The notes: a model not told the origin generated them from the letters alone. Numbered from the stretch's first letter, positions 7,375 to 64,000 are shown. The stretch: DNA of 64,000 nt from Demequina subtropica (GCF_000971235.1 NZ_BBMB01000012.1:1-64000), one strand, 5' to 3'. Made by a program: numbers and translations.

Positions 7375-7449
7375 TGGTGGGCGATACTGGGATCGAACCA
7401 GTGACCTCTTCCGTGTCAGGGAAGCGCGCTACCGCTGCGCCAATCGCCC
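7375..7449 (-). tRNA. tRNA-Val(GAC)
   Basis: On the minus strand the 7-bp acceptor GGGCGAT pairs with ATCGCCC. The anticodon loop CTGACAC sits between CTTCC and GGAAG, giving anticodon GAC. The T-loop is GTTCGATCC and CCA is encoded. It is the last tRNA of the array and identical to the copy at 7629-7703. Confidence 0.96.
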
Positions 7450-7502
7450 GTCTTCTCCAGACGGAGCAATCGCCGGGCTCCCAGGGGGAGACCGGCGATC
7501 CT

Positions 7503-7578
7503 TGGAGCGGACGACGGGACTCGAACCCGCGACCCTCACCTTGGCAAGGTGATGCTCTACCAACTGAGCCACGTCCGC
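7503..7578 (-). tRNA. tRNA-Gly(GCC)
   Basis: The acceptor GCGGACG pairs with CGTCCGC. The anticodon loop TTGCCAA lies between TCACC and GGTGA, giving anticodon GCC. The T-loop is GTTCGAGTC and CCA is encoded. Its body is identical to the copy at 7808-7880, which lacks an encoded CCA. Confidence 0.96.
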
Positions 7579-7628
7579 GTTGCCGGGGCAGAAGCCCCGG
7601 ACTTCATGAGGATCCCGAAGGAACCTCG

Positions 7629-7703
7629 TGGTGGGCGATACTGGGATCGAACCAGTGACCTCTTCCGTGTCAGGGAAGCGCGCTACCGCTGCGCCAATCG
7701 CCC
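7629..7703 (-). tRNA. tRNA-Val(GAC), second copy
   Basis: Same sequence as the copy at 7375-7449, including the encoded CCA. It lies one base from tRNA-Cys, which precedes it in transcription. A GC-rich hairpin (7583-7600) separates it from the following tRNA-Gly. Confidence 0.96.
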
Positions 7704-7704
7704 G

Positions 7705-7775
7705 AGGTGGAGATGGGATTCGAACCCACGTATACGGCTTTGCAGGCCGCTGCCTCGCCTCTCGGCCACTCCACC
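7705..7775 (-). tRNA. tRNA-Cys(GCA)
   Basis: The acceptor GGTGGAG pairs with CTCCACC. The anticodon loop CTGCAAA between GCGGC and GCCGT gives anticodon GCA. The T-loop is GTTCGAATC. CCA is not encoded and must be added by CCA transferase. Confidence 0.95.
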
Positions 7776-7807
7776 GTAGTGCCGTAACCTAGGGCTACGA
7801 CGCTCCG

Positions 7808-7880
7808 AGCGGACGACGGGACTCGAACCCGCGACCCTCACCTTGGCAAGGTGATGCTCTACCAACTGAGCCACGTCCGC
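7808..7880 (-). tRNA. tRNA-Gly(GCC), first in the array
   Basis: Same cloverleaf and GCC anticodon as 7503-7578, but the 3' end reads TCGG, so CCA is not encoded. It is the first tRNA of the minus-strand transcript Gly-Cys-Val-Gly-Val, about 30 bp behind a promoter candidate. Confidence 0.95.
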
Positions 7881-8043: not shown

Positions 8044-9147
8044 ATGACACGGGAGGACGATGCGCGCCGCGCCGGGAGCGCCGCGTTCCGTGGTGTGCGG
8101 GCGTGGGAGCCCGTCGAGCACGTGGCGCTCGACCGGGCGGGCGAGCGCATCGCCGCCGGCGGGTTCTGGGTGGTCGTCGCTACCTTCGAGGGTCGGCTCG
8201 ATGCCTGGCGCATGGCCCGCGTCGAGAGGGACGATGCCCGCCCCGAGCCTGCGCCGAAGCCCGGCCGCGACTGGCGCGGCCCCGAGGCGCACTCCTGGAG
8301 CACCTCACTCGACGAGGCCGCGTACCGGGCAGGCGTCGAGCGCATCCGGGGCGACATCCGCGAGGGCGACGTCTACCAGGTCAACCTCTGCCGCATGCTC
8401 GAGGCCCCGCTGCCGGCGCCCGAGCCCGGGCCGGACGCCGTCGCGCTCGCGCACCGTCTCGCGACGGGCAACCCCGCGCGCCACGCCGCCCGCATCGTGA
8501 TCCCGCGCGCGGACGCGTGGCCCGGCGCGTGGGTCGTGTCCGCCTCGCCCGAGCTCTACCTCCGCATCGATGGCACACGGGTGCTGTCGAGCCCGATCAA
8601 GGGCACGGCGGCGCCGGGGGAGGCGATGCTGCCCAAGGACGAGGCGGAGAACATCATGATCACCGACCTGATCCGCAACGACGTGTCGCACGTCGCGCTG
8701 CCCGGATCCGTGACCGTCCCCGAGTTCCTGGGCCTCCACGAGCTTCCCGGGCTGGTGCACCTGCAGTCCACCGTCGCCGCGACGCTCGCTCCCGACTACG
8801 ACTGGACTCCGGCCCTCTGGCCGGCGCTGCTCGACGGCACCTTCCCGCCCGGGTCCGTCAGCGGGGCCCCGAAGTCGTCCGCGCTGCGCATCATCGAACG
8901 CGAGGAGCCCGGCGTCCGCGGGGCGTACTGCGGGGGCATCGGATGGATCGACGCGGACCGCCGCGAGGCCGAGCTCGCCGTCGGCATCCGCACCTTCGAA
9001 TGGGTCCCGGACCAGGGGGGACGCCTCCGGTTCGGGACCGGTGCGGGCATTACGTGGGGTTCCGACCCTTATGGGGAGTGGGCGGAGACGGAGCTCAAGG
9101 CGCGTCGCTTGATAGCGCTTGCCTCGGCCCCCAGAATGGCGACATGA
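8044..9147 (+). CDS. pabB: Aminodeoxychorismate synthase component I
   Basis: Encodes 367 residues. PabB converts chorismate and ammonia to 4-amino-4-deoxychorismate for folate synthesis. The chorismate-binding domain is clear: SSPIKGTAAPGE (with the PIKGT lysine diagnostic of PabB over TrpE), ITDLIRNDVSHV, PPGSVSGAPK, GAYCGGIGWI and FGTGAGITWGSDP. It is shorter than E. coli PabB at the N-terminus. Its glutaminase partner PabA is not in the window. The gene overlaps pabC by ATGA, so both folate steps are coupled. No Shine-Dalgarno sequence is seen, and a leaderless start is likely. Confidence 0.92.
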   Translation: MTREDDARRAGSAAFRGVRAWEPVEHVALDRAGERIAAGGFWVVVATFEGRLDAWRMARVERDDARPEPAPKPGRDWRGPEAHSWSTSLDEAAYRAGVERIRGDIREGDVYQVNLCRMLEAPLPAPEPGPDAVALAHRLATGNPARHAARIVIPRADAWPGAWVVSASPELYLRIDGTRVLSSPIKGTAAPGEAMLPKDEAENIMITDLIRNDVSHVALPGSVTVPEFLGLHELPGLVHLQSTVAATLAPDYDWTPALWPALLDGTFPPGSVSGAPKSSALRIIEREEPGVRGAYCGGIGWIDADRREAELAVGIRTFEWVPDQGGRLRFGTGAGITWGSDPYGEWAETELKARRLIALASAPRMAT

Positions 9148-54602: not shown

Positions 54603-56261
54603 ATGAAGCAACTGGGAAGCATCCTGCTCGAGGACGGCACGCTCACCGAGGACCAGCTCGTCGACGCGATCGACGCGCAGCAGCAGCGGGGACAGTCGCT
54701 CGGGCGCACGCTGGTCGAGCTCGGGTACATCTCCGAGGGGCAGCTGGTGCGGGCGCTCGCGCAGCAGGTCGGGATGGAGTTCGTCGAGCTCGCCGAGTAC
54801 CCCGTCGACCGCACCGCCGTCGCGATGGTCCCCGAGGCCGTGTGCCGCCGCCACCACGCGCTCCCTCTCGCGGTGGGCGACGGCATGATGAAGGTCGCGA
54901 TGTCGAACCCCGGCAACGTGGTCGCGGTCGACGACATCGGCACCATCACGCGCCTGCGCGTGGTCCCGGTCGTCGCGGCGCACGACGACCTGCAGCAGGC
55001 GATCGACCGCTACTGCCGGTCGGACCAGGAGCTCCAGAACCTCCAAGGCGAGATCAGCGACGAGCCCGACGGCGTGGACCTGTCCGACATGGGCGCGGTC
55101 ATCGAGGACGACGCTCCCATCGTCAGGTTCGTCAACCTGCTCATCACGCAGGCGATCCAGGACCGTGCCTCCGACATCCACATCGAGCCGGCCGAGGCGG
55201 ATGTGCGCGTGCGCTACCGCATCGACGGCGTGCTCCACGAGATGCAGCGCGCGCCGAAGGCGACGCAGAACGGCATGATCTCGCGCATCAAGATCATGTC
55301 CGACATGGACATCGCGGAGCGGCGCAAGCCGCAGGACGGCCGTCTCTCCGTCAACCACCAGGGCCGCAAGATCGACCTTCGTGTCGCGTGCCTGCCCACC
55401 GTGTGGGGCGAGAAGATCGTCATGCGTGTGCTCGACAACTCGACGGCGACGATGGCGCTCGAGGACCTGGGCCTGCGCGAGCAGAACCAGGCGCTCTACC
55501 GCGACTCGTACACCAAGCCCTACGGCATGATCCTGGTGACCGGGCCGACGGGTTCGGGCAAGTCGACCACGCTCTACGCGACGCTCAACCAGGTGTCGCG
55601 CCCCGAGATCAACGTGATCACCGTCGAGGACCCGGTCGAGTACCGCATCCCCGGCATCAACCAGGTTCAGGTCAACCCCAAGGCGGGACTCACGTTCTCG
55701 GGCGCGCTGCGCTCGATCCTGCGTGCCGACCCGGACGTGGTGCTGCTCGGTGAGATCCGTGACGGCGAGACCGCCCAGATCGCGATCGAGGCCGCGCTCA
55801 CCGGTCATCTGGTGCTGTCGACGCTCCACACGAACGACGCGCCGTCCGCCATCACGCGACTCACCGAGATGGACATCGAGCCGTTCCTGGTGGGCTCCGC
55901 TGTCGACTGCGTGGTCGCGCAGCGACTCGCGCGCCGGCTGTGCCCGAAGTGCAAGGAGGAGTACACGCCCACCGAGCACGAGCTGGCGCGCTTCTCCTGG
56001 GAGGGCGCGGGCGTGCCCACGCTCATGAAGCCGGTCGGGTGCTCGAACTGCTCGCACACCGGCTACCGGGGCCGCCTCGCGCTTCACGAGATCATGCCGG
56101 TCAACGAGGAGATCGAGCGCCTCGCGGTCGCGCGGGCCTCGTCGGCGGAGATCTCCCTGGCAGCCCGCGATGCGGGCATGCAGACGCTTATCGAGGACGG
56201 CTGGGCCAAGGTCATGGACGGGTCCACCTCGGTGGAGGAGCTCCTGCGCGTTGTGAAATAA
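54603..56261 (+). CDS. pilB: Type IV pilus assembly ATPase PilB (GspE family)
   Basis: Encodes 552 residues. An N-terminal MshEN/GspE-N domain (about 1-130) starts MKQLGSILLEDGTLTEDQLVDAI. The motor has Walker A GPTGSGKS at 314-321, the Asp box VEDPVEYRIPGINQVQVN, Walker B PDVVLLGEIRD (Glu384) and the His box GHLVLSTLHTNDA. A zinc-binding tetracysteine is complete: Cys447, Cys450, Cys480 and Cys483. It powers pilus extension at the inner face of the membrane. It is the first gene of the cluster. MshEN domains can bind c-di-GMP in some species. Confidence 0.96.
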   Translation: MKQLGSILLEDGTLTEDQLVDAIDAQQQRGQSLGRTLVELGYISEGQLVRALAQQVGMEFVELAEYPVDRTAVAMVPEAVCRRHHALPLAVGDGMMKVAMSNPGNVVAVDDIGTITRLRVVPVVAAHDDLQQAIDRYCRSDQELQNLQGEISDEPDGVDLSDMGAVIEDDAPIVRFVNLLITQAIQDRASDIHIEPAEADVRVRYRIDGVLHEMQRAPKATQNGMISRIKIMSDMDIAERRKPQDGRLSVNHQGRKIDLRVACLPTVWGEKIVMRVLDNSTATMALEDLGLREQNQALYRDSYTKPYGMILVTGPTGSGKSTTLYATLNQVSRPEINVITVEDPVEYRIPGINQVQVNPKAGLTFSGALRSILRADPDVVLLGEIRDGETAQIAIEAALTGHLVLSTLHTNDAPSAITRLTEMDIEPFLVGSAVDCVVAQRLARRLCPKCKEEYTPTEHELARFSWEGAGVPTLMKPVGCSNCSHTGYRGRLALHEIMPVNEEIERLAVARASSAEISLAARDAGMQTLIEDGWAKVMDGSTSVEELLRVVK

Positions 56262-56371: not shown

Positions 56372-57994
56372 ATGGACGGATCGATGCCAGACCGACAGTC
56401 CTGGCCTGTGCCGCAGCCTCAGACGCCGCCGCAGGTGTCGCTGCACGGCGCGGGACAGCAGCCGGCCCGCGCGCCGTTCCTGGCCGAGCGTCGGGGGACC
56501 GGGGCCGATGTCTCGCAGCCCGCGCCGCCCACTGGTGCACCCGTCCCGGGCGCCGCGCCCGCCTCGTTCGTGCCGCAGGCTCCCGCAGCCCCGGCCGCCG
56601 CCCCGCAGGGATCGTTCTCGCCGCAGGCTCCGGCCGCATCGTTCGCGCCCCAGCAGCCCGCATCGTTCACCTCGCAGGCACCCGCCGCGTCGCAGCCCGC
56701 ACCCGCAAGCCCGGCGCAGGCCTTCGAGCAGGCCGCGCAGGCCCAGCTCGGCCAGCAGACCTTCGCGCCGGCCCCGGCGCAGCAGCAGGCACCCGCCGCG
56801 CCCGAGGCGCCGGCCCAGCCCGCCGCGCCCGCCCGTCAGGCGGCCCCCGCGACCTCCGCCGGCGGCAACCGCATCGGCATGGCGAGCCAGCGCGAGGACT
56901 CGGACCTTGACCTCCAGCTCGCGCTGCGCGAGATGATGCGCCTCGGCGCCTCCGACCTCCACATCACCACTGGCGCGCCGCCGATGGTGCGCCTCGACGG
57001 CGGCCTCACGCCCATCCCGAACATGGAGCGGCTGACGCCCGCGAGCATCCAGCGCTCGCTCTACTCGATCCTCACGCAGAAGCAGCGCGAGGTCTTCGAA
57101 GAGCACCTCGAGCTCGACTTCTCGTACGCCCTGGTGGGGGAGGGGCGCTTCCGCGTCAACCTGTACCAGCAGCGCGACTCGCTCGGCGCCGCCTTCCGTG
57201 TGATCCCCTACGAGATCAAGGCGCTCGAGGCGCTCGGCGTCCCGCCGGCCGTCGGCAGCCTCGCGGGCAAGCACCGCGGCCTCGTGCTGGTGACCGGTCC
57301 CACGGGCTCGGGCAAGTCGACCACGCTGGCCTCGCTCATCGACCTGGTCAACCGCAACCGTGCGGCGCACATCATGACCGTCGAGGACCCGATCGAGTTC
57401 CTGCACAAGCACAAGAAGTCGCTGATCAACCAGCGCGAGGTGGGCGCCGACACGCACTCGTTCGGCAACGCCCTCAAGCACGTGCTGCGTCAGGACCCCG
57501 ACGTCATCCTCGTGGGCGAGATGCGCGACCTCGAGACCATCTCCGTCGCGCTCACCGCGGCCGAGACCGGTCACCTGGTGTTCGCGACGCTGCACACGCA
57601 GGACGCGGCGCAGACCATCGACCGCATCATCGACGTGTTCCCCTCGGAGCAGCAGGGCCAGGTGCGCACGCAGCTCGCCACCGCGATCCAGGGCGTGGTC
57701 TGCCAGGCGCTCGCCAAGCGTGCCGACGGCGCGGGCCGCGCGGTCGCGACCGAGGTCATGATCGCGACGCCCGCGATCCGCAACCTCATCCGCGAGGGCA
57801 AGACGCACCAGATCTACTCGATGATGCAGTCGGGCTCGCGTCAGGGCATGCACACCATGGATCAGCACCTCGCGGAGCTGGTGCGCAGCGGTCGCATCTC
57901 CTACGAGTCCGGCCTCGAGCTGTGCCACCACTACGAGGACTTCAACCGCCTGTGCGGCCGCACCGGTGCCGATGCGCAGGGAGGCCAGCACTGA
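56372..57994 (+). CDS. pilT: Type IV pilus retraction ATPase PilT with long disordered N-terminus
   Basis: Encodes 540 residues, well above the usual 340-370. Residues 1-165 are an Ala/Pro/Gln-rich, probably disordered extension. The PilT core begins at about 175 (DLDLQLALREMMRLGASDLHITTGAPPMVRLDG). Walker A is GPTGSGKS (309-316), followed by VEDPIEFLHKHKKSLINQREVG, Walker B PDVILVGEMRD (Glu383) and the His box GHLVFATLHTQDA. The PilT-type C-terminus is IRNLIREGKTHQIYSMMQSGSRQGMHTMDQHL. The ATG has GGGAGAGGG upstream. A 110-bp leader with a GlxR-type site separates it from pilB. Confidence 0.95.
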   Translation: MDGSMPDRQSWPVPQPQTPPQVSLHGAGQQPARAPFLAERRGTGADVSQPAPPTGAPVPGAAPASFVPQAPAAPAAAPQGSFSPQAPAASFAPQQPASFTSQAPAASQPAPASPAQAFEQAAQAQLGQQTFAPAPAQQQAPAAPEAPAQPAAPARQAAPATSAGGNRIGMASQREDSDLDLQLALREMMRLGASDLHITTGAPPMVRLDGGLTPIPNMERLTPASIQRSLYSILTQKQREVFEEHLELDFSYALVGEGRFRVNLYQQRDSLGAAFRVIPYEIKALEALGVPPAVGSLAGKHRGLVLVTGPTGSGKSTTLASLIDLVNRNRAAHIMTVEDPIEFLHKHKKSLINQREVGADTHSFGNALKHVLRQDPDVILVGEMRDLETISVALTAAETGHLVFATLHTQDAAQTIDRIIDVFPSEQQGQVRTQLATAIQGVVCQALAKRADGAGRAVATEVMIATPAIRNLIREGKTHQIYSMMQSGSRQGMHTMDQHLAELVRSGRISYESGLELCHHYEDFNRLCGRTGADAQGGQH

Positions 57995-59226
57995 TGGCGG
58001 CCACCGACATCAAGAAGTTCGACTACGCGGTCCGCGACACCCACGGCAAGATCCAGAAGGGCACCATCGAGGCGCCCTCCGAGGGCGCCGTCGCCCACCG
58101 CCTCAAGGAGATGGGCCTCGCGCCGGTCTCGATCACCGAGGTGAAGACCGGCGGTCTCCAGGCCGAGATCAAGATCCCGGGCCTGTCCGACAGGATCAAG
58201 CTCAAGGACGTCGCCGTCATGTCGCGCCAGCTCGCGACCATGATCGCCTCGGGCCTGTCCCTGCTGCGCGCGCTCAGCATCCTCGCCGAGCAGACCGAGA
58301 ACCCCGCGCTCGCACGCGTGCTGCAGGAAGTCCGCAACGACGTCGAGGCCGGCTCGTCGTTCTCGGCCTCGCTGTCCAAGCACGACAAGGCGTTCCCGCC
58401 GCTCATGGTCAACATGGTGCGCGCCGGCGAGGTGGGCGGATTCCTCGACGACGTCCTCGAGTCCGTGGCCGCGAACTTCGAGGCCGAGGTCAAGCTGCGC
58501 GGCAAGGTCAAGTCGGCGATGACCTACCCGGTGGTGGTGTTCGTCATCGCCATCCTCGCCGTGATTGGGATGCTGCTGTTCATCGTCCCGGTGTTTGCGA
58601 CCATGTTCGCGGACCTGGGAGGCGAGCTGCCGTTCCTTACCCGGATCCTGGTGATGATGTCCGACGGCCTCAAGATCGGCATCGTCCCTCTGATCGTGGG
58701 CATCATCGCGCTCAACGTGTTCTGGACCAAGAACAAGAACAGGGTTGAGTTCCGCGAGAAGGTGGAGCCCGTCTACCTCCGGCTCCCGGTGTTCGGGCAG
58801 CTGATCCAGAAGATCGCGATCGCGCGCTTCACCCGCAACCTGGGCGCCATGGTCCGCTCGGGCGTCCCGATCCTTCAGGCCCTCGACATCGTGGGCCAGG
58901 CGAGCGGCAACATCGTGATCGAGCGCGCGGCCAAGGACGTGCGCGAGTCGGTGCGCACCGGAAACTCACTCGCCAAGCCGCTCGCGCAGCACGAGGTATT
59001 CCCGCCCATGGTGGTCCAGATGATGGCCGTCGGCGAGGACACGGGCGCGCTCGACACGATGCTCGACAAGGTCGCGGACTTCTACGACCAGGAGGTCGAG
59101 GCGACCACGGAGGCGCTCACGTCGCTCATCGAGCCGCTCATGATCGCGGTGCTCGGCGGGATCATCGGCTTCATGGTCATCGGTCTGTACATGCCGATCT
59201 TCTCGGTGTTCTCGCTGGTCGAATAA
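57994..59226 (+). CDS. pilC: Type IV pilus inner-membrane platform protein PilC
   Basis: Encodes 410 residues. Two T2SSF domains, each with the opening FSRQLATMIASGLSLLRAL-like pattern (VMSRQLATMIASG and FTRNLGAMVRSGVPILQALD), alternate with three to four membrane helices (AMTYPVVVFVIAILAVIGMLLFIVPVF and LMIAVLGGIIGFMVIGLYMPIF). The N-terminus FDYAVRDTHGKIQKGTIEA is typical. PilC links the ATPases to pilin assembly. The ATG overlaps the pilT stop (TGATG). Confidence 0.95.
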   Translation: MAATDIKKFDYAVRDTHGKIQKGTIEAPSEGAVAHRLKEMGLAPVSITEVKTGGLQAEIKIPGLSDRIKLKDVAVMSRQLATMIASGLSLLRALSILAEQTENPALARVLQEVRNDVEAGSSFSASLSKHDKAFPPLMVNMVRAGEVGGFLDDVLESVAANFEAEVKLRGKVKSAMTYPVVVFVIAILAVIGMLLFIVPVFATMFADLGGELPFLTRILVMMSDGLKIGIVPLIVGIIALNVFWTKNKNRVEFREKVEPVYLRLPVFGQLIQKIAIARFTRNLGAMVRSGVPILQALDIVGQASGNIVIERAAKDVRESVRTGNSLAKPLAQHEVFPPMVVQMMAVGEDTGALDTMLDKVADFYDQEVEATTEALTSLIEPLMIAVLGGIIGFMVIGLYMPIFSVFSLVE

Positions 59227-59338: not shown

Positions 59339-59800
59339 ATGATCGCTCGCATCCGCAAGGCCCAGGAGACCGAGGGCTTCACCCTCATCGAGCTCCTCGT
59401 CGTCATGATCATCATCGGCATCCTCGCCGCGGTCGCCATCCCGATCTTCCTCTCGCAGCGCGAGAAGGCGGAGGACTCGGCCGCCAAGGCCGACGTGTCG
59501 ACCCTCGGCAAGGAGATCGCGACGTACTACGTCGACGGCACCGGCACGCCGACCGTGGCGCAGGACGCGACGTCGGGCAAGTACACGCTGACCGGCACCG
59601 CCACCGGTGCCACTGCCAAGCCGATTGGCAACTCTTCCGCGAACGTCCTGCTCGGTGACGCTGTCGAGCAGCGTGGTACGGGCACGGCCATCGACTCCAC
59701 CAACTGGTGCATCGATGTCACCAACCCCAAGGGTGACAAGGCCGTCGTGGGCTACCGCTACTCGGCACAGGGCGGTCTCGAAGAGGGCGCCTGCGCCTAA
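59339..59800 (+). CDS. pilA: Major type IV pilin (class III signal peptide)
   Basis: Encodes 153 residues with AGGGAGG 5-6 nt before the ATG. The short basic leader ends at Gly13; prepilin peptidase would cut at G-FTLIE, leaving an N-methylated Phe and the conserved Glu5. The hydrophobic helix LLVVMIIIGILAAVAIPIFL is typical T4a pilin. The globular part has two cysteines (NWCID and GACA) for the C-terminal disulfide loop. As the first pilin gene with the best ribosome-binding site it should be the main subunit. A very strong hairpin follows. Confidence 0.94.
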   Translation: MIARIRKAQETEGFTLIELLVVMIIIGILAAVAIPIFLSQREKAEDSAAKADVSTLGKEIATYYVDGTGTPTVAQDATSGKYTLTGTATGATAKPIGNSSANVLLGDAVEQRGTGTAIDSTNWCIDVTNPKGDKAVVGYRYSAQGGLEEGACA

Positions 59801-59812
59801 GAAGGCATGACT

Positions 59813-59856
59813 GGTCGTTGGTGGTGGGGCGCACGTGCGCCCCACCACCAACGACC
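59813..59856 (+). terminator. 44-bp perfect palindrome after pilA
   Basis: Positions 59813-59834 and 59835-59856 are exact reverse complements with no spacer. The RNA would fold into a 20-bp GC-rich stem. It begins 12 bp after the pilA stop and has no U-tract. It probably terminates most pilA transcripts or protects their 3' end, lowering expression of the minor pilin genes. Confidence 0.7.
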
Positions 59857-59886: not shown

Positions 59887-61680
59887 GTGACGATGCGCCT
59901 GCGACGCCACCTGCTGGACTCGCGTGACGAAGGATTCACGCTGGTCGAGCTGGTTGTCGCCATGTTCATCATCGCGATCGTGCTCGTCTCCCTGATCGGA
60001 GTCCAGCTCTCGTCGATGGTCACCATCAGCAACGCGACCAAGCGCCAGCAGGCGACTGCCTACGCCAACCAGGCGATGGAGACCTTGCGTGCAATGCCGT
60101 GGGACACCCTTAACAAGGGGAACGTGCCCGGATTCCAGTCGGTGTCGGGGAACTTGGACCCTTACTACAGCGGTAGCAACTCGGCTGGCACCGTCACGGT
60201 CGACGGCGAAACGTACACGGTCCGCCTCGCGACCTCGAACACACAGAACCTCGCGTCCCCGCGGCCGCCGTTGTTCGACGCGACGGGCAAGAACGTCGTG
60301 ATCAGCACTGATCCCGCGATCCCTGGGTTCACCTTCACCACCCGCGCGTACATCGTCGATTCGCTCGCAGGGACTCAGGCATCCGTGGGCTTGCTCGTCA
60401 TCGTCTCGTGGCAGGACCAGAAGACGGGCGAGAGAGACGACCTGGCGCTTCGCTCATCTGCATTCCCCGGCTCCGAGGGCTGCGGGAAGCTCGAGGAGCT
60501 TCCGTACCTGGTCTCGTGCCAGGACCGGTTCACGTTCGCGGCGTCGTCCGGCAGCGTCACCACCTCCCTGAGCTCTACCGAGACGGATTCGACCATGCAG
60601 ATCGAGCTCCTGGAGGGCTCGGGCTTGCGTGAGCTGGCTGTAACATCGGGCCTGGTATCCGCGTCGGGCGAGTCGGTGCAGGTGACTTCGACGGAAGGCA
60701 AGGCTCGGCGCGGAGGCGTCGTGTCCACGCAGCTGCCCGCGACGGCTGCGGACCCGGGCACCACCACCGAGACCGGGTTCTCCGAGACCGCGACGGAGGC
60801 GTCCAACAACTTCGCCCTCGCCAATGGCGCTCCGGTTGACGATCAGAGCCTGGTGAGCGCCGCCGGGAGCTCCCAGCAGTCGCTGAGCGTGGGCAGCTGG
60901 GTGCTGAAGGCCAAGGGCGACGACGTCCGTTCGGGGACGTCGCGGTCCTCGACCACGCAATCCTGCTTTGCGAGCGGCCTCTACGCTGGCTCGCCTTGCT
61001 CCTACACCGACCTGAGCGGCGCGGGAGACCTCGAGATGAGCGTCTCCGTCGCATCGAACACGATGTACCCGGTGGTGCGTCGAGGCACAGCCGCCTCGAC
61101 CGCGGGCGGCGGCCGGTTCACCACCTCGGTGCCCGGCACCGCCTTCGGGTGCCAGACGCTGAGCTCGTCGGGGTGCACCTCGGCTTCGGGCACGTTCAAG
61201 GAGACGCAGCTGGGGATCGGCTATCTGGCGGGAGGTTGGGGCGGCGGCAGCGACTACCTGGTCGAGGTCAGCTACCAGGACTCGGTGCTCGGACAGAGAG
61301 GCGCCTCCCAGATGGCGGTCGCGCCGACCGTCACGCGCTCGGCGACGGTGAAGCTCTCGAGCGGTTCGCCCATCTCCATCGGCGCCTCCTCATCGGGCGT
61401 GATCGCGACCGGCGCGCCCGTAACCTGGAGCCCGACGGGCGGAGTCGTGGTCACTGCGACCGCCGCCGTGTCCGCGACTCCGGCCTCGACCACGCAGGTC
61501 GGGGAGGATCCCGTCGTCGACTGCTCTACTGACGTGTGCGCCGTCACCGCGAACGCAGGCTCGATCACCGTGAGCGTCAAGTACCAGGTGGTCACGTCGA
61601 CCGGATCCTGGGACATGTATCAGAACACGGTGATCGCAGGGTCCTCCGTGAGCGCGTCCTACGAGCGGAGGAACGGATGA
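59887..61680 (+). CDS. Very large minor pilin-like protein
   Basis: Encodes 597 residues from a GTG (an ATG two codons on is an alternative). The leader VTMRLRRHLLDSRDEG ends before FTLVELVVAMFIIAIVLVSLIGV, a class III signal with cleavage after Gly16 and Glu5 in place. The following roughly 550 residues are Ser/Thr/Gly-rich and beta-like, with about eight cysteines. Pilins are usually 130-200 residues, so this is unusual. I do not recognise a named domain in the extracellular part; tip adhesin is a guess. A/T-ending codons are more frequent than in the housekeeping genes. The stop overlaps the next gene (ATGA). Confidence 0.85.
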   Translation: MTMRLRRHLLDSRDEGFTLVELVVAMFIIAIVLVSLIGVQLSSMVTISNATKRQQATAYANQAMETLRAMPWDTLNKGNVPGFQSVSGNLDPYYSGSNSAGTVTVDGETYTVRLATSNTQNLASPRPPLFDATGKNVVISTDPAIPGFTFTTRAYIVDSLAGTQASVGLLVIVSWQDQKTGERDDLALRSSAFPGSEGCGKLEELPYLVSCQDRFTFAASSGSVTTSLSSTETDSTMQIELLEGSGLRELAVTSGLVSASGESVQVTSTEGKARRGGVVSTQLPATAADPGTTTETGFSETATEASNNFALANGAPVDDQSLVSAAGSSQQSLSVGSWVLKAKGDDVRSGTSRSSTTQSCFASGLYAGSPCSYTDLSGAGDLEMSVSVASNTMYPVVRRGTAASTAGGGRFTTSVPGTAFGCQTLSSSGCTSASGTFKETQLGIGYLAGGWGGGSDYLVEVSYQDSVLGQRGASQMAVAPTVTRSATVKLSSGSPISIGASSSGVIATGAPVTWSPTGGVVVTATAAVSATPASTTQVGEDPVVDCSTDVCAVTANAGSITVSVKYQVVTSTGSWDMYQNTVIAGSSVSASYERRNG

Positions 61681-62372
61681 GGCGGCAGCGCCAGGCGGCG
61701 CGTCGCCTCCTGCGCGACGACAGCGGCATGACCCTGACCGAGCTGCTGGTCGCCATGATGATCTTCGGCGTGCTCATGGCGATCGTGATGGCGGTGATGA
61801 TCCAGCTCATGCAGCTGTCGAAGGACAACATGGGTCGCGTGAGCGCTGCAGAGAACGCTCGCCTCGGCGTGTCCCAGATCGACAGGCAGGTCCGTTCGGG
61901 GAACGTGATCCTTGATCCTGCACTCGAGTCCCTCGCTGGCTCGGGCGTGGACCCCTACTACTCGTTGCGTATCTTCACGCAGGCGGACGGTGACTCCCGG
62001 TGCGTCCAATGGCGTGTCATCGACGCCGACGGCGACGGCTCCGGCGAGCTTCAGTATCGCGAGTGGGATCCTTCGTACCCGGTCGTGGTCGATGTCCAGC
62101 CCTGGGGTGTCGTCGCACATGACGTCGTCCTCGGCACGGGCACCACGCCGGACCCGACGGACCCCGCGACGTGGCCGCCGTTCTGGAAGGACACGACGAC
62201 GATGGTCGCCGCCGGAAGCACCCCGGCCCAGAACGTGCGCATCACGCTCCATGTCAAGAACGACGAGATGCGGGACTCGGCCAAGCCGGTCACCGTCTCG
62301 ACGGTGGTGACGGGCCGCAACACGGTCCTCGGCTACTCCGAGTCCAACTGCTCCGTCATCCCGGCACCGTAG
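61677..62372 (+). CDS. Minor pilin, PilW-like
   Basis: Encodes 231 residues. A 17-residue basic leader (MRRQRQAARRLLRDDSG) precedes MTLTELLVAMMIFGVLMAIVMAVMIQLMQL, a class III signal with Met at +1 and Glu5. The globular part (SRCVQWRVIDADGDGSGELQYREWDP) resembles PilW/GspJ-type minor pilins with C-terminal cysteine near the end (ESNCSVIPAP). It is co-translated with the large minor pilin and would form part of the priming tip complex. Confidence 0.88.
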   Translation: MRRQRQAARRLLRDDSGMTLTELLVAMMIFGVLMAIVMAVMIQLMQLSKDNMGRVSAAENARLGVSQIDRQVRSGNVILDPALESLAGSGVDPYYSLRIFTQADGDSRCVQWRVIDADGDGSGELQYREWDPSYPVVVDVQPWGVVAHDVVLGTGTTPDPTDPATWPPFWKDTTTMVAAGSTPAQNVRITLHVKNDEMRDSAKPVTVSTVVTGRNTVLGYSESNCSVIPAP

Positions 62373-62382
62373 GAGGCACCGC

Positions 62383-63987
62383 ATGCTCAACCGAATCCGT
62401 GATGACCGTGGATCCGCTCTGGTCGCGGCGGTCGCCGTCGCCCTAATCGGCGTCGCCATCAGCATCGTGGTGGTCGCACAGGCGATCATGCTGACGAACG
62501 ACTCCGCGCGGGACTCCGTCCGGACCAGCGCCGTGCACGGCGCAGAAGCCGCGCTCGACACTGTCATCGAAATGCTCGCCGTTCAGAACCCGTGCCCGAC
62601 GGTGACGTTCACAGACGTCGCCCAGGGGACCAACTCGGTGGATGTCACCGTGTCGATCGAGTATCGGGACCAGAGCGGCGCGGACCTGACTACGTGCACC
62701 AGCGGCCAGATCGTCGGTACGCCGTACAGCGCGATGATCAAGGCAACGGCGACGCCGACCCACGAGGTCAACGGGATCGAGCCGGTGCGGTCGGTCGAGG
62801 CGGCCGTCTCGCTGGTCCCGCGCGCGGGTCACTCTGCGGCGATCTACAGCGCTACAGCGCCGTCGACAGGCGCCGGATTCAGCCTCGACCCGTTCATCCC
62901 GACCGATACCGCGAACGTCTGGGTCGACAGCGGGGACTTCGTGAGTAACACGAATGTGCAGATCGACGGTGACCTGACCGCGGTCCAAGGCTCAATCACG
63001 CTCAACGGCGAGAGTTGGGCCGAGGGCCACGTCTGGGCGCAGAACAACGTCAAGATCGTCTCGACGGCCTCTCACGCCCGCACAGGTGACGGGCTCACGG
63101 CGCGCACGGGCAACCTTTCCATCTCGAACGCCTCCCAGGTGTTCAACGGCAATATCTACGTCGGGGGGTCCGCGTCCGGCTGGGGCTACACATCGGGCAC
63201 GATGGTGGTGAACAATGGGTCGGTCTTCCTGAACGACGCGAGCATCGCCAATCTCTCGCCGATCGGCATCCCTGTGGTGGGCATCGTCCCGTCGGACTGG
63301 GCGGGCTTCACGTTCAAGGCGCGTGGTCTCGCGGATGGGAACGCGACCACGTACGGCGGTGCGAACTCCTTCAAGAACGACATCATTAGCGGAACTTCCG
63401 GCGGCATCAACCAGTACCAGCGGAGCCAGCTCGACGGCTGTACCGTCGCGAACTGGATGGCCGACTCTCAGGTCGGTGGGTTCGCCGAGATCAGCCTGCC
63501 TCCGTTCACCGCCTACGACCTCACGGGCTACACCAACTCATCCCAGAAGTGCACGACGCTCACCCTTCAGAACGTCCGCTTCAAGCTCACCGGCGATGTC
63601 GTGTTCTTCGTGAAGAACGTCTCGGCCAACAACCCCGTGCAGGTCGTGAGCGCGGACGGCCTCGAGCACAACATCTGGTTCATCTCGCCCAATGACGATC
63701 ATGCCTCGATGCAGTCGGTGGGGTACTCGGACTCTGGCGCCGCTATCACGTTCCACTCGGGTACGAACCTCTTCCAGGATCCCATCAAGGTGTTCCTGTA
63801 TACGCCTGGCACCCTGAGCTTCCAGAACTCGGTCCTGACGAACGGCCAGATGTACGGCGGCACGGTCAACATCGGTCCCAATCAAGACTTCTCGTACTAT
63901 CCCGTAGGAATCCCGGGCGTGGATCTGACGACCACGCACGCGACCGGTTCCGACGTGACGATCGAGTACAAGCGCGAGGACCGGTAG
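62383..63987 (+). CDS. PilX-like protein with beta-helical extracellular region
   Basis: Encodes 534 residues with AGGAGG 7 nt upstream. The leader MLNRIRDDRG precedes SALVAAVAVALIGVAISIVVVAQAI, like PilX/GspK-type minor pilins, but lacks the Glu5 of classical pilins. The large remainder has many Asn/Ser/Gly turns (NVKIVSTAS, NASQVFNGNIYVGG, NNGSVFLNDASI) suggestive of a right-handed beta-helix, and ends ...SDVTIEYKREDR. This may be a surface or tip component. Functional assignment is inference from position and the N-terminus. Confidence 0.82.
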   Translation: MLNRIRDDRGSALVAAVAVALIGVAISIVVVAQAIMLTNDSARDSVRTSAVHGAEAALDTVIEMLAVQNPCPTVTFTDVAQGTNSVDVTVSIEYRDQSGADLTTCTSGQIVGTPYSAMIKATATPTHEVNGIEPVRSVEAAVSLVPRAGHSAAIYSATAPSTGAGFSLDPFIPTDTANVWVDSGDFVSNTNVQIDGDLTAVQGSITLNGESWAEGHVWAQNNVKIVSTASHARTGDGLTARTGNLSISNASQVFNGNIYVGGSASGWGYTSGTMVVNNGSVFLNDASIANLSPIGIPVVGIVPSDWAGFTFKARGLADGNATTYGGANSFKNDIISGTSGGINQYQRSQLDGCTVANWMADSQVGGFAEISLPPFTAYDLTGYTNSSQKCTTLTLQNVRFKLTGDVVFFVKNVSANNPVQVVSADGLEHNIWFISPNDDHASMQSVGYSDSGAAITFHSGTNLFQDPIKVFLYTPGTLSFQNSVLTNGQMYGGTVNIGPNQDFSYYPVGIPGVDLTTTHATGSDVTIEYKREDR

Positions 63988-64000
63988 GTGGCATTGCTGA
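63988..64000 (+). CDS. Start of the next pilus-cluster gene (cut by the window edge)
   Basis: A GTG follows the previous TAG directly, with GAGGA (63976-63980) 7 nt upstream, and reads Val-Ala-Leu-Leu before the sequence ends. A pilM-type gene would fit this place, but four codons cannot show it. Confidence 0.35.

Follow-up and report, generated by a model that had tools for sequence, protein, structure and literature searches.

A probable horizontally exchanged tip-adhesin cassette of large minor pilins in the type IVa pilus operon of Demequina subtropica

The stretch of DNA examined here, 64,000 nucleotides of Demequina subtropica (NZ_BBMB01000012.1:1-64000, hereafter called the window), carries close to its end three consecutive genes for minor pilins, pilV, pilW and pilX, which together occupy positions 59887-63987 of the plus strand. 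We consider it probable that they constitute a horizontally exchanged tip-adhesin cassette, the products of which would prime a type IVa pilus and bind a ligand in the environment, probably a polysaccharide. An original prediction made from this DNA had described the three open reading frames (ORFs), and their order, strand and sizes were confirmed:

59887..61680, plus strand: pilV, PilV/GspI-like modular minor pilin, 597 amino acids (aa), GTG start
61677..62372, plus strand: pilW, PilW/GspJ-like minor pilin, 231 aa, with Glu at mature position 5 (Glu5), N_methyl 3e-7
62383..63987, plus strand: pilX, PilX/GspK-like modular minor pilin, 534 aa, no Glu5

Exchange of the block and alternative heads across Demequina

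One genome per species was compared, with gene calls in the relatives made in this analysis. Compared with D. gelatinilytica (G019), the window strain has nearly identical PilC (96%), PilM (96%) and AroC (98%), whereas identity drops to 37% in PilV, 54% in PilW and 35% in PilX. In a second pair of species that is equally close by PilC, PilM and AroC (G022/G006), the same three minor pilins share 79%, 95% and 83%. We return here to the window strain and D. gelatinilytica. At the DNA level, the two species show an identity of about 0.84-0.99 as far as the first half of pilA. From that point through the pilX stop codon it lies at about 0.4-0.7, with most values close to 0.5; over pilD and pilM it climbs to 0.78-0.88, and after a second dip over pilN and pilO it recovers.

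The trees conflict in the same manner. A backbone tree of pilC, pilM, pilD and aroC joins the window strain with D. gelatinilytica (support 100/100) and rejects its grouping with an assembly of D. lutea (G007; p 8e-4), whereas the trees of PilV, PilW and PilX join it with D. lutea (100/100, 98/99 and 100/100), and the approximately unbiased (AU) test rejects the grouping with D. gelatinilytica for all three (PilV p 2e-63, PilW 2e-5, PilX 4e-10). The D. lutea sequence is a metagenome assembly, with the V-W-X block and its flanks on one contig. The simplest account of these comparisons is that the window lineage imported V-W-X as a single unit from the lineage of a distant species; this direction is favoured because D. 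gelatinilytica falls with its backbone neighbours in the PilV, PilW and PilX trees. The suggestion that these genes evolve fast thus turned out stronger than claimed, and in the window strain the change is mainly one of horizontal block replacement.

Trees of PilD, PilN and PilO keep the window strain with D. gelatinilytica, and a joint transfer of PilA was found unsupported, the PilA tree retaining the same grouping weakly (63/87). PilN and PilO share 61% and 55% with D. gelatinilytica, yet their grouping with it led us to reject an exchange, and they seem to be fast-evolving rather than exchanged. The two genes lie beyond the window at L004:6869-8487 (genome 65868-67486) and have diverged while pilM and aroC remain at 96-98%. 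For PilV of the pair G022/G006 we obtained nonsynonymous and synonymous substitution values (dN and dS) of 0.15 and 1.1; as dS approaches saturation in this block, dN/dS was set aside as evidence for positive selection.

Relatives of PilX were found in Demequina species and in two Cellulomonas species, while full-length or near full-length relatives are sparse elsewhere in the order and phylum. Within Demequina three types of tip can be distinguished. Type 1, found in 13 genomes including that of the window, has a PilV of about 600-650 aa and a PilX of about 510-560 aa. In type 3 (7 genomes) PilV measures just about 145-170 aa and has no PilV module, and PilX (about 530-635 aa) is homologous to that of type 1 over the greater part of the chain (hhalign probability 100, E 2e-40). 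Type 2 (G002, G009, G012 and G017) has a PilX whose stalk is homologous to type 1, with a ricin-type lectin as head: Ricin_B_lectin was matched with E-values down to 4e-12 in four of the five members of the type 2 PilX alignment, one member being from outside Demequina. Homology between type 1 and type 2 PilX extends to residue 179 of 534 in hhalign, and between the corresponding PilV proteins it covers residues 8-70, the stalk; some type 2 PilV heads contain Big_9 or cadherin-like domains.

Homologous stalks are thus combined with beta-solenoid, ricin-type lectin, Ig-like or no heads, which argues that the heads are modules, and judged by its domain match one alternative Demequina tip head is a sugar-binding fold. 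The solenoid family of PilX also appears outside the pilins. The window genome encodes a secreted protein of 1042 aa with NIDO, GDSL hydrolase and PKD domains (L102:5451-8579, contig C15 of G000). In its C-terminal 300 aa this protein shows homology to the PilX solenoid (E 2e-29), so the solenoid works as a detachable module.

Stalks, heads and predicted folds of the three minor pilins

The full class III signal with Glu5 claimed for PilV (DEG/FTLVE) was confirmed by matches to Pfam N_methyl (8e-8) and NCBIfam type_IV_pilV (4e-9), the latter falling below the cut-off of that family. PilW likewise carries such a signal, again with Glu5 (DSG/MTLTE). By inspection, PilX has a basic leader, Gly at position -1 and a hydrophobic helix, with Ala at mature position 5 (DRG/SALVA); read from the N-termini, Glu occupies this position in no Demequina PilX, and Ala there is as expected for a putative top subunit of GspK/ComZ type. 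In gene order, in the sub-cut-off NCBIfam match of PilV and in the K-like member without Glu5, the set resembles GspI-GspJ-GspK and PilV-PilW-PilX. It differs from them in that the I-like member is normally small, while the Demequina PilV has 597 aa, and in that PilX of the window has no Pfam or NCBIfam match, including the T2SSK and PilX families. A PilX_N match (7e-4) occurs in one type 3 relative only, and weak Ice_binding and Bactofilin matches were seen in PilX relatives.

PilV is composed of a stalk (about residues 1-70) and an all-beta module that spans about 500 aa and contains 8 Cys, and PilX of a stalk and pilin domain (1-146), a beta-solenoid-type module and a final strand (523-533). 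In agreement with the original prediction that the large heads hold no named domain, none was found in PilV and PilX of the window beyond the N-methyl motif in Pfam, NCBIfam and PDB sequences. Both heads are strongly acidic (isoelectric point, pI, 4.0-5.1). PilV and PilX are conserved over their full lengths in 13 Demequina species, so neither is a spurious or fused ORF. The A/T-ending codons attributed to these genes were recovered in part: G+C content at third codon positions (GC3) is 0.87, 0.89 and 0.87 in pilV, pilW and pilX, below the mean of 0.93 for the long ORFs of the window, but this is not special to them, as pilM, pilN and pilO are lower still (0.82-0.85). For the same reason low GC3 was rejected as a mark of foreign origin.

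AlphaFold2 models were built from 15-17 relatives and reached a mean predicted local distance difference test score (pLDDT) of 79.7 for PilX and 82.1 for PilV; the fold was judged from Foldseek and from the order of secondary structure elements. In the PilX model a long helix is followed by a few strands of pilin type, an extended beta part and a final strand that is conserved. Its best Foldseek match is ComZ of Thermus thermophilus (6qvi; E 9.6e-8, probability 1.00, template modelling (TM) score 0.37), followed by tapirin 4wa0 (E 3e-3, probability 0.97), with ice-binding proteins behind. ComZ is a GspK-like pilin with Gly at position 5 and a beta-solenoid that is inserted before the last strand and is nearest to an ice-binding protein; it was proposed to reside at the pilus tip and to bind DNA (PMC6561018).

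ComZ and PilX are alike in chain length (518 residues and 534 aa), in the lack of Glu5, in a gene beside those of other minor pilins and in a last strand that follows the solenoid part, for PilX as seen in the model, where the order of strands 86-146, solenoid part and strand 523-533 agrees with ComZ on secondary structure alone. They differ in that no sequence similarity was detected and that the Demequina host is monoderm; moreover, the partner of ComZ, PilA2, has a small subdomain only, while the I-like neighbour in Demequina, PilV, has a large module. Taken together, the models support a ComZ-like beta-solenoid fold for PilX and with it the beta-helix character previously ascribed to this protein. 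The original prediction had named close matches to equally large characterised minor pilins as evidence against it; ComZ, with its 518-residue chain the best structural match of PilX, provides such evidence in part.

The second-best fold match belongs to the cellulose-binding tapirins of Caldicellulosiruptor (PDB 4wa0, 6n2b; PMC9933333), with which PilX shares partial similarity. When the PilX family profile was compared with PDB sequences, the top match was again 4wa0, deposited as a possible adhesin; this match is weak (E 0.09) and covers the solenoid part. Tapirins are encoded beside pilins and are not known to be fused to them. The PilV model shows a helix and an all-beta region, for which Foldseek gave no convincing match to PDB or viral folds; matches to porin-like beta barrels (TM about 0.1, probability <0.5) were discarded as noise, and viral matches were not significant.

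The pilus operon and its surroundings

Gene content and order show that the window strain has a complete type IVa pilus operon, with the minor pilins between pilA and pilD. Pfam matches were obtained for PilB, PilT, PilC, PilD and PilM, and the major pilin has the GFxxxE motif. Besides the three minor pilin genes the following features belong to the locus:

54603..56261, plus strand: pilB, extension ATPase, 552 aa; Pfam T2SSE 2e-140, MshEN 9e-22
56372..57994, plus strand: pilT, retraction-type ATPase with a Pro/Ala-rich N-terminus, 540 aa, the second ATPase after pilB; Pfam T2SSE 1e-45
57994..59226, plus strand: pilC, platform protein, 410 aa; Pfam T2SSF 2e-70
59339..59800, plus strand: pilA, major pilin, 153 aa; N_methyl 2e-6
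59813..59856, plus strand: perfect 22-bp inverted repeat in the gap between pilA and the minor pilins; dG -50 kcal/mol, z -7.6
63988..64000, plus strand: start of pilD (prepilin peptidase), which runs past the end of the window; Pfam Peptidase_A24 3e-10

Downstream of the window, pilD is followed by pilM (Pfam PilM_2 1e-44), pilN, pilO and aroC; the Pfam match of PilN is below threshold, and PilO was assigned from its position alone. The start of pilW overlaps the stop of pilV by 4 nt. Including the window's own, 24 of the 25 Demequina genomes searched have pilC, and all 24 share the operon order V-W-X followed by pilD-M-N-O. In one of them, G009, pilC (L082:1-1225) lies in two overlapping frames, owing either to a frameshift or to a sequencing error.

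The inverted repeat at 59813-59856 lacks a T run and probably forms an RNA hairpin, which may govern the balance between major and minor pilins; in most relatives the corresponding gap folds strongly as well, with dissimilar sequences. PilA itself is 96% identical to that of D. gelatinilytica over the first 55 residues counted from the signal motif and 64% identical in the head; towards other relatives the head shares 34-51%, with the helix almost unchanged. A search for PilY1 in 39 genomes gave no match, and the control genomes likewise gave none. Elsewhere in the window, the minus strand carries five tRNA genes at 7375-7880 (Val, Gly, Val, Cys, Gly), in which Val and Gly each recur, and at 8068-8164 an odd tRNA-like ARAGORN match lies without Rfam support.

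Possible role of the tip and alternative explanations

By analogy with I-J-K complexes and with PilA-PilB-PilC of Streptococcus sanguinis (PMC9934059, PMC8179133), priming and tip residence can be proposed for the Demequina proteins. PilV (I-like), PilW (J-like) and PilX (K-like) would be cut by PilD and then associate in the membrane, with PilX capping the complex. The complex would prime polymerisation of PilA by PilB and so end up at the distal tip, where the PilX beta-solenoid and the all-beta module of PilV would project and attach to a ligand in the surroundings, a polysaccharide or another surface polymer being the most likely, before retraction by PilT would pull the cell. The stalks would fit the shared machine, and the heads would be replaced between species by horizontal transfer. 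The operon, the stalks, the lack of Glu5 in PilX, the differing modules and the transfer of the block are evident from sequence, while tip location, adhesion and ligand are inferred; arguments for a polysaccharide are the lectin head found in sister species, the similarity to tapirins and the module shared with the secreted hydrolase. More tentatively, and at somewhat less than even chances, the cassette may move by homologous recombination in its conserved neighbours, so that each transfer changes the ligand specificity of the pilus, with solenoid, ricin-lectin and Ig-like heads as alternative states.

Several points weigh against an adhesin of this kind. ComZ 6qvi was not recovered by sequence with phmmer, nor with the profile up to E 10; the models stem from only 15-17 sequences, and the TM-score to ComZ is only 0.37. 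The PilV module has no structural match, and ricin-type domains are confined to type 2 species and absent from the window strain. To our knowledge there is no experiment on this Demequina pilus, and our literature search turned up no paper devoted to Demequina pili. Finally, the ligand proposed for ComZ is DNA rather than a sugar (PMC6561018).

The last point leads to the main alternative, in which the tip would serve natural transformation as a receptor for DNA: PilX would bind DNA and the pilus would pull it to the ComEC channel. ComZ, the best fold match of PilX, was shown to bind DNA (PMC6561018), which fits such a role, and ComEC is encoded in the window genome, but it is present in 37 of 39 relatives with or without this pilus and is therefore not diagnostic of competence; being near-universal, it was dropped as a sign of it. 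The acidic heads of PilX and PilV argue mildly against DNA binding, and replacement by a lectin or loss of a module between sister species would be unexpected for a conserved receptor, so that we regard this alternative as unlikely, if the strongest of those considered. Still less likely is that the heads are mainly structural, serving assembly priming or the crossing of a thick wall, and diverge by drift under weak constraint. I-J-K minor pilins do prime assembly in other systems (PMC9934059), and substitution in the close pair G022/G006 is still mostly purifying; however, seven Demequina species do without the PilV module, and drift accounts neither for the replacement of an entire block with conflicting trees nor for lectin and Ig-like domains at equivalent positions. 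Equally improbable, we think, is diversification driven by phages or self-recognition, with tip and PilA head varying to escape pilus-binding phages or to restrict contacts to kin. In its favour are the variability of PilA head, PilV and PilX, and the differing minor pilin sets of Pseudomonas pilin groups, for which phage escape has been discussed as a cause (PMC11841053); it leaves the recruitment of sugar-binding and solenoid modules unexplained and is compatible with an adhesin role too.

A tip adhesin would agree with what has been described in other bacteria. Modular pilins comprise more than 1,200 proteins in 264 architectures (PMC8179133) and have been presented as tip adhesins (PMC8179133, PMC9934059); minor pilins above 50 kDa are known in monoderms (PMC6916266), and the pili studied in Actinobacteria were described as Tad-type (Tfpc, PMC6916266). 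PilB and PilC of S. sanguinis, treated in the same two sources, are a close parallel, belonging to a monoderm type IVa pilus with two large modular and one small minor pilin and predicted to act together at the tip as adhesins; exchange of the pilin set between species is not described in the text available for that system. The proposal of a tip-type module on pilin stalks in Gram-positive type IV pili is supported by our comparisons, whereas the view that such large extracellular parts are rare did not hold given the numbers above. The claim of novelty stands in part: tip pilins that are modular and equally large have already been described as a class, while the unclassified head pair, the swapping of heads of unnamed families, the large I-like pilin and the clear exchange of an entire tip block inside one genus of Actinomycetota seem to be new.

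The PilV module adds a large conserved all-beta domain to which no known fold was matched. Surface recognition by Gram-positive type IV pili is poorly known, and Demequina, with its constant machine and replaced tip block, provides natural chimeras for asking whether the tip sets adhesion. The block swap suggests that members of this genus exchange pilus tips and in doing so alter what their cells stick to.

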